From Haloplanus vescus (GTDB lineage Archaea; Halobacteriota; Halobacteria; Halobacteriales; Haloferacaceae): a stretch of 64,000 nucleotides of DNA. The stretch spans positions 45,742-109,741 of the forward strand of contig NZ_FNQT01000001.1 in NCBI RefSeq assembly GCF_900107665.1, in the 5' to 3' direction. The notes under the pieces were generated by a model. It was given only the letters and a program-made list of their open reading frames with translations. It had not been told where the DNA came from and made no database searches. Both the position numbers and the translations under genes were made by a program. Below are positions 1-976 of the stretch, piece after piece. Numbering within the stretch: the first letter of the stretch is position 1; each line of letters starts with the position of its first letter.

Positions 1-191
1 TCAGCCGTGTAGGGACCGGAGACTGCGCCACCGTTGCCATCGGCAGTGTAGGGACCGGAGACGGCGCCACCGTTACCGTCAGCCGTGTAGGGACCAGAGA
101 CTGCTCCACCGTTACCGTCAGCAGTGAATGGACCGGAGACCGCCCCACCGTTGCCGTCTGCAGTATAGGGGCCTGAAACAGCGCCGCCGTT
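1..191 (-). repeat. 39-bp in-frame tandem repeats
   Basis: Almost five head-to-tail copies of a 39-bp unit encode a 13-residue repeat. There is no spacer between units, so this is not a CRISPR array. Differences between copies are nearly all at third codon positions. Confidence 0.9.
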
Positions 192-245
192 CCCAGCCGC
201 TGCGTTCGTCTGCGTTTCCACCGTTTCGCTGTCACGTTCGGACAT
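1..245 (-). CDS. N-terminal part of a 13-residue tandem-repeat protein (runs off left edge)
   Basis: The start codon is the ATG at 245, and 81 codons lie inside the window. The first 18 residues are polar and there is no signal peptide or membrane segment. From residue 19 on, the protein is an uninterrupted 13-residue repeat with consensus NGGAVSGPYTADG; nearly five copies are visible. Copies differ mostly at synonymous positions; the one amino-acid change seen is Y to F in the second copy. This argues for selection on the protein rather than on the DNA repeat. The upstream 120 bases are AT-rich and could hold its promoter. I do not recognise the family. A fibre-like or surface-binding role is only a guess from the Gly/Ser/Thr/Tyr-rich repeats. 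Confidence 0.75.
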   Translation of the reverse strand, partial: MSERDSETVETQTNAAAGNGGAVSGPYTADGNGGAVSGPFTADGNGGAVSGPYTADGNGGAVSGPYTADGNGGAVSGPYTA

Positions 246-388
246 TGCACTCGAACCGTCACGCGACGAGAAATTATAATTTTTCGAGAATATCTGATAG
301 TTAATATAATCAATTAAAGCAACTGCACACTGACATAAACATAGGCAGACGAACAGTTGCGAGCGGGGGACTGATTAGCGGGAGACTG

Positions 389-976
389 CTACTCGTCGTC
401 GCGTTGTTCGCGGTCGAGGTCGCGGTAGATCAGGGTGAGGGCGTCGGTGTCGCTGAGGCGCGCGAGTTGGTCGTCGAGGTCCTCGCGGAGGGTGTTGAGA
501 TCGGAAACGAGTTGCTGGTAGTTCTCGTCGTTTTCGAGCGTTGAGGCGTCCTTCTCGGTTTCGAGCAGGGCCTTCTTCGAGGCTAGCGAGAAGAGTTCTC
601 TGATGCCGTCGTCGTACTCGTCACGGATGCGGAGGTTCTCGACCATCTCGATGAGGTCGCTCTCCGAGACAGGTTTGACGAGGTAGTCGTCGAAGGGCAT
701 ATCGACGATGTCGGTGTCGGGTTCGACGGCCGTCACCATCGCGACCCGACAGTCGAGGTTTCGCTCCCGGATGCGCTCGAGCACTTCGTCACCCGAGATA
801 TCGGGCATTCGACGGTCGAGAAGCACGATGTCGACCTCCTCGTCGAGGCTGTCGAGTGCCGCTCTGCCGTCGGCTGCTGTCCGAACTCGATACGATTCCT
901 TGAGCCACATCTGATACAGTTCGGACAGGTCACGTTCGTCCTCGACGACGAGAACGAGAGGGAGATCGTCGGTCAT
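389..976 (-). CDS. Response regulator with HalX output domain
   Basis: This 195-residue protein has a receiver domain at residues 6-118. It shows the acidic pocket (VEDE near residue 11), the phosphoacceptor Asp in the IVLLDRR stretch near residue 54, and the conserved Lys in YLVKPV. A HalX domain (about 120-185), a helical haloarchaeal domain found after receivers, follows. There is no classical DNA-binding domain, so the output is probably protein-protein. No kinase gene is adjacent. A TATA-like element on the minus strand near 1031-1042 would give a short leader. Its receiver closely resembles those of the regulators at 39,953 and 43,542; all share a TAVEP motif after the switch region. 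Confidence 0.9.
   Translation of the reverse strand: MTDDLPLVLVVEDERDLSELYQMWLKESYRVRTAADGRAALDSLDEEVDIVLLDRRMPDISGDEVLERIRERNLDCRVAMVTAVEPDTDIVDMPFDDYLVKPVSESDLIEMVENLRIRDEYDDGIRELFSLASKKALLETEKDASTLENDENYQQLVSDLNTLREDLDDQLARLSDTDALTLIYRDLDREQRDDE

Follow-up and report, generated by a model that had tools for sequence, protein, structure and literature searches.

Several described systems combine elements that are found at the locus analyzed here. In type III-E CRISPR systems, the CHAT protease Csx29 has a dedicated substrate gene, csx30 (PMC10028731). Fungal KEX2-processed repeat proteins and alpha-factor precursors contain tandem cores that are cut apart (PMC7329392, PMC6339444), and in Anabaena the CHAT protease HetF (PMC8406250) and the pentapeptide signals PatS and HetN (PMC7761841) belong to one developmental pathway. 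The closest counterpart is DUF7503 (PF24335), a haloarchaeal family of unknown function with the same locus, N-terminus, SGP tail, promoter element and convergent CHAT gene. A literature search, whose coverage mostly left aside subscription papers, found no paper on DUF7503 or DUF7504 and none combining the CHAT domain with haloarchaea. Neither the DUF7503-CHAT pair nor the repeat array reported below was described in the literature searched, which is not proof of novelty.

The window, a stretch of 64,000 nucleotides from Haloplanus vescus (contig C1 of its genome, C1:45742-109741), begins inside a gene made of short tandem repeats, hereafter the array gene, that converges on a CHAT gene. As in the Csx29-Csx30 pair, there is a CHAT fold with a catalytic His and Cys, encoded beside a likely substrate gene. 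Unlike that pair, the locus has no CRISPR parts, and cleavage of the partner is putative here; in place of the two-domain anti-sigma-like Csx30 there is a very small peptide with a GP tail, or an array. With the fungal precursors the array shares tandem near-identical cores, spacers and copy-number variation between species, but it is archaeal and has neither a secretion signal nor dibasic sites: Lys and Arg are absent from every unit examined, so that no KEX2 site lies between the cores. The likeness to Anabaena consists in a CHAT-domain regulator accompanied by small peptides, and the active part of PatS is a short C-terminal motif, comparable to the GP tail here. However, the partner genes are adjacent in our case and the Anabaena motif is RGSGR, so we use this as a working analogy only. 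Neither the CHAT protein nor the array matched any of the PADLOC anti-phage models.

The features of the locus are the following:
3..245, minus strand, 5' part of the array gene, with the leader at 192-245 followed by tandem 13-residue units
153..191, minus strand, repeat unit 1, NGGAVSGPYTADG
114..152, minus strand, repeat unit 2, NGGAVSGPFTADG
75..113, minus strand, repeat unit 3, NGGAVSGPYTADG
36..74, minus strand, repeat unit 4, NGGAVSGPYTADG
3..35, minus strand, repeat unit 5, truncated by the window edge and gap
272..317, minus strand, 46-bp upstream element, probable BRE/TATA with a TGAT...ATCA palindrome
389..976, minus strand, response regulator with HalX domain, neighbour of the array gene on the same strand
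beyond the window edge, minus strand, leftward extension of the array gene, with its stop at C1:45332
C1:45497-45741, assembly gap of 245 N inside the array gene
C1:43212-45335, convergent to the array gene, CHAT-family (caspase-fold) cysteine protease homologue of 707 residues
C1:42443-43159 (L009:15443-16159), DUF7504 protein (PF24336), immediately upstream of the CHAT gene and in the same direction

Translation of the minus-strand frame starting at 245 gave an 18-residue leader, MSERDSETVETQTNAAAG, followed by 13-residue units of the form NGGAVSGP[Y/F]TADG, confirming the layout proposed in an earlier note on this DNA. The window takes in four complete units and a fragment of a fifth, and a degenerate 32-base pattern of the unit matched four times where 0.01 matches were expected. 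That note had called the repeats perfect; they are indeed regular in length but near-perfect in sequence, with F replacing Y in copy 2. It had also suggested extending the gene leftwards, and the extension runs through the 245-N gap in frame, with at least four further units on the other side and a terminus NGGAVSGP-TAA. The frame is open either side of the gap and no frameshift was seen. Since 245 is incompatible with the 39-bp phase, the length of the gap is an assembly estimate, and the total of at least nine units is a lower bound because the gap interrupts the array. The hydropathy scan detected no hydrophobic segment in the protein and no N-terminal secretion or export signal was found; there was no Pfam or NCBIfam match above curated cut-offs and no Pfam match at E 0.01, in line with the earlier impression of a protein with no membrane segment, signal or known domain. 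Sub-cut-off Pfam matches to GYF, Chlam_PMP and Cuticle_2 were discarded as reflecting low complexity. A PDB sequence search returned chance matches only, and AlphaFold2, given the single sequence as input, produced no confident fold (pLDDT 46, pTM 0.25).

The end of the array gene and the stop of the CHAT gene overlap by 4 nt. Against the CHAT model PF12770, the convergent protein scored slightly under the curated cut-off of 24 (22.2 bits, E 1.1e-4). When the profile of the haloarchaeal family was aligned to canonical CHAT of other archaea with hhalign, the probability was 95.7% (E 9.5e-9), and the motifs HYIGH and LNAC fell on the canonical catalytic His and Cys. These residues, His509 and Cys540, are invariant across 44 diverse CHAT homologues. 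The neighbour is a CHAT-family predicted protease. A single-sequence structure model of the H. ruber orthologue had a pLDDT of 36 and was useless. In most of the loci inspected, a DUF7504 gene precedes that of CHAT, which raises the possibility of a three-gene module. CHAT relatives are also carried by plasmids, on which the array was not found, and none of the viral contigs encodes one.

Arrays occupy the convergent locus in nine of the 12 Haloplanus genomes (our own and eight further ones), while the remaining three have DUF7503 in the same place, for example MSESDSGTVAAYLNDNPRMMGVLFTMLLLLSQAGTVAASNGGGISGP; the complementarity is exact, and no array genome has any PF24335 match. Both forms start almost identically (MSESDSGTVA versus MSERDSGTVT) and share the tail NGGGISGP. 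Anchoring the alignment at the C-terminal end places the unit YTADG-NGGAVSGP against TVAAG-NSGAISGP, the closing 13 residues of DUF7503, in which small residues are followed by N-x5-GP. The forms differ in the hydrophobic segment that follows N-P-R-M in DUF7503 and is missing from the array: the maximum hydropathy over 19 residues is at most 0.15 in arrays, compared to 1.20-2.07 in DUF7503. Judging from these alignments, the array is a DUF7503 peptide without the hydrophobic segment, in which the C-terminal 13 residues have been amplified in tandem; arrays carry from 2 to 14 tails, set apart by a [YFM][TN]ADG spacer. On account of the shared position, N-terminus, tail and promoter, we regard it as a derived positional orthologue of DUF7503, although not a member of the family by the model, which it does not match. 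The earlier note had left room for repeats belonging to a described family. They do trace to one, but DUF7503 has no function in its annotation and is itself without repeats. The decisive context lay outside the window, namely that the unit is an amplified DUF7503 tail and that DUF7503 is the standing partner of the convergent CHAT.

We considered a single origin of the array and set it aside, given that the CHAT tree does not group the arrays in one clade. Three label changes are needed on this tree, where the two-copy array of genome G005 has a DUF7503 species as its fully supported sister; the array may have arisen in parallel, or the small locus may have been transferred. Among the 293 genomes of the order, searches for the array in other genera yielded low-scoring matches only, probably due to low complexity. 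Four Haloplanus genomes have about 1 kb of N at an equal distance from the array, a masked or missing stretch (L033:2165-3205, L034:12753-13796, L035:2213-3232 and L038:12640-13758).

Comparison of the copies within our own array gave DNA identities of 0.72-0.85, a pN of around 0.02 and a pS of 0.64-0.70 (about 0.7), which correspond to dN/dS values of 0.009-0.017. Across Haloplanus arrays, dN/dS among copies was likewise between approximately 0 and 0.02. A protein conserved against drifting DNA, as the earlier note had described it, thus holds in the eight further Haloplanus genomes, as does its expectation that homologues would vary in copy number, with 2 to 14 units per species when the final shortened unit is counted. 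Recombination of the array is evident from certain copies that have the same DNA sequence. The unit sequence varies between Haloplanus species but scarcely within one, the species-specific units being NGGGISGPYTADG, NGSGISGPMTADG, NGGGISGPMNADG, NSGGISGP[YFS]TADG, NGGGISGPYNADG, NSSGISGPMTADG and NGGAVSGPYNADG, and all nine arrays terminate in exactly SGP (GISGP or AVSGP). By these substitution patterns, the copies evolve in concert, and purifying selection on every one of them is strong.

The 46-bp upstream element precedes array and DUF7503 genes alike in Haloplanus, and is exact in every locus of the genus except the short G005 contig. This near invariance exceeds the conservation of the surrounding coding sequence. 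The element has one site only in its own genome, hence a putative dedicated regulator may bind there. A response regulator comparable to that at 389..976 adjoins DUF7503 in other genera (L051, L053 and L063).

Beyond Haloplanus, other haloarchaeal genera encode a DUF7503 peptide of about 42-44 residues at the same convergent position, built of the hydrophobic segment and a short tail ending in Gly-Pro. CHAT relatives were present in 268 of the 293 Halobacteriales genomes (about 91%) and DUF7503 in 248 (about 85%). None of the 20 CHAT-negative genomes among those listed was DUF7503-positive, and two genomes with CHAT fragments only had no DUF7503 either. Each of the 87 distinct DUF7503 genes collected faced CHAT convergently, and same-strand or divergent arrangements were absent; the median stop-to-stop distance was 2 bp (30 bp or less in 65 of them). 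The tail ended in GP in 79 cases and had Gly at -2 in 81, the other eight lacking GP. The most variable residues of the peptide are those preceding GP, and CHAT paralogues within one genome have their own, differing tails. Ahead of the tail, a small residue at -12 and Ala at -10 resemble a signal-peptidase site. If cut there, the tail would become a nonapeptide for export; from this signal-peptide-like sequence, the tails probably lie outside the membrane. At one locus (L153:433-783), two tandem DUF7503 genes stand beside a single CHAT, a second way to multiply the tail.

Partners outside DUF7503 were also found. Within one family, some of them (L133, L135 and L137) have no DUF7503 match, no clear membrane segment and a Cys-containing tail ...CTYSGP. 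The element common to membrane, soluble and array partners is the GP tail. For the CHATs at L155, L156 and L159 no GP-tailed partner was seen. Genome G020 (loci L158 and L162) has 12 CHAT matches and zero DUF7503, and a longer hydrophobic partner ending in IGIGP occurs at one of its CHAT loci. Covariation of tail and CHAT was examined as a contact signal and abandoned: the divergence correlation was lower for the tail than for the hydrophobic segment (r 0.24 versus 0.38), so common descent explains it.

We lean towards seeing in the array a soluble, multi-copy offshoot of DUF7503, with the GP tail as a putative ligand or substrate of CHAT. In favour are the exact complementarity in Haloplanus, the ends and promoter common to both forms, the convergence of all 87 DUF7503 genes with CHAT, the prevalence of GP ends, also among partners outside DUF7503, the low dN/dS among copies and the invariant catalytic residues of the CHAT homologues. 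Array and DUF7503 species are distinguished by a single position of CHAT, so the protease would tolerate both partner forms, and the tail they have in common is its probable contact. That the membrane part was discarded and the tail multiplied points to the latter as the working part, and we infer that it is the element CHAT recognises. The array would then present many GP tails on one soluble protein, and it could either be cut within the [YFM][TN]ADG spacer, releasing GP-tailed peptides, or stay whole and cluster or titrate CHAT. By analogy, processing into single GP-tailed peptides is possible. A caspase-type cut at YTAD-G is an attractive idea but a guess, as the active region of CHAT has no invariant basic residue. 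Any single model meets one main tension, in that the DUF7503 tail is probably exported and the array has no export signal. Counting against the preferred view, too, are the eight tails that lack GP, the CHATs at L155, L156 and L159 with no GP-tailed partner seen, and a tail-CHAT correlation no higher than common descent would give. We know of no archaeal case of a soluble multi-copy peptide precursor.

A possible but rather less probable explanation is that the array is never cut and works as a disordered multivalent scaffold or decoy, its GP motifs binding several CHATs and activating them by proximity, or titrating and restraining them; DUF7503 would act alike through clustering in the membrane. 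A strict unit sequence with varying copy number, the missing secretion signal, the lack of a predicted fold (pLDDT 46 from a single sequence) and partner forms that share the tail and differ in all else are consistent with it. However, the GP tail of DUF7503 is a free C-terminus and arrays end exactly in SGP, suggesting that a free end matters, and internal units have none unless cut, which weakly favours the cutting version. In either version, the earlier note's reading of a binding repeat may prove right. Its other suggestion, a structural repeat, is not supported: a regular 13-residue repeat constrained at the protein level would suit a structural or surface-binding protein unconnected to the protease, but there is neither an export signal nor a confident fold from the single sequence, and in each of the species examined the gene is orthologous to DUF7503 and overlaps that of CHAT, so we consider this very improbable.

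Protease-activated pore formers have precedents in the bacterial gasdermins. DUF7503 is short, hydrophobic and adjoins the gene of a caspase-fold protease, so it might be a membrane-active toxin or pore that CHAT checks or releases, the array being a soluble remnant that competes for the protease or serves as an antidote. We find this improbable, given that the module is near-universal in haloarchaea, that array and CHAT match no anti-phage model and that in nine species the membrane segment was lost, whereas the tail was retained and multiplied, with strong selection acting on it. It is scarcely credible that the array is a minisatellite slipping at the DNA level with an unselected product. 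Varying copy number and DNA-identical, recombining copies would fit, but dN/dS values close to zero contradict an unselected product, and the frame is open with the exact SGP end in nine genomes behind a nearly invariant promoter.

In Haloplanus, evolution has in effect run the experiment itself, and this makes the CHAT-partner pair directly testable. A wider proposal, which we put forward tentatively and hold to be rather doubtful, is that haloarchaea share a near-universal form of regulation by a caspase-fold CHAT and its own GP-tailed peptide, with a distinct tail for each paralogue, in which Haloplanus turned a single membrane-borne peptide into a soluble multi-copy precursor, and which would account for an orphan caspase-like activity. 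Such activity is strong in Haloferax volcanii, and the source describing it names the responsible protein as yet to be identified (PMC3615174). As a testable suggestion, the haloarchaeal CHAT is a candidate for this enzyme; the genome of Haloferax volcanii carries DUF7503.
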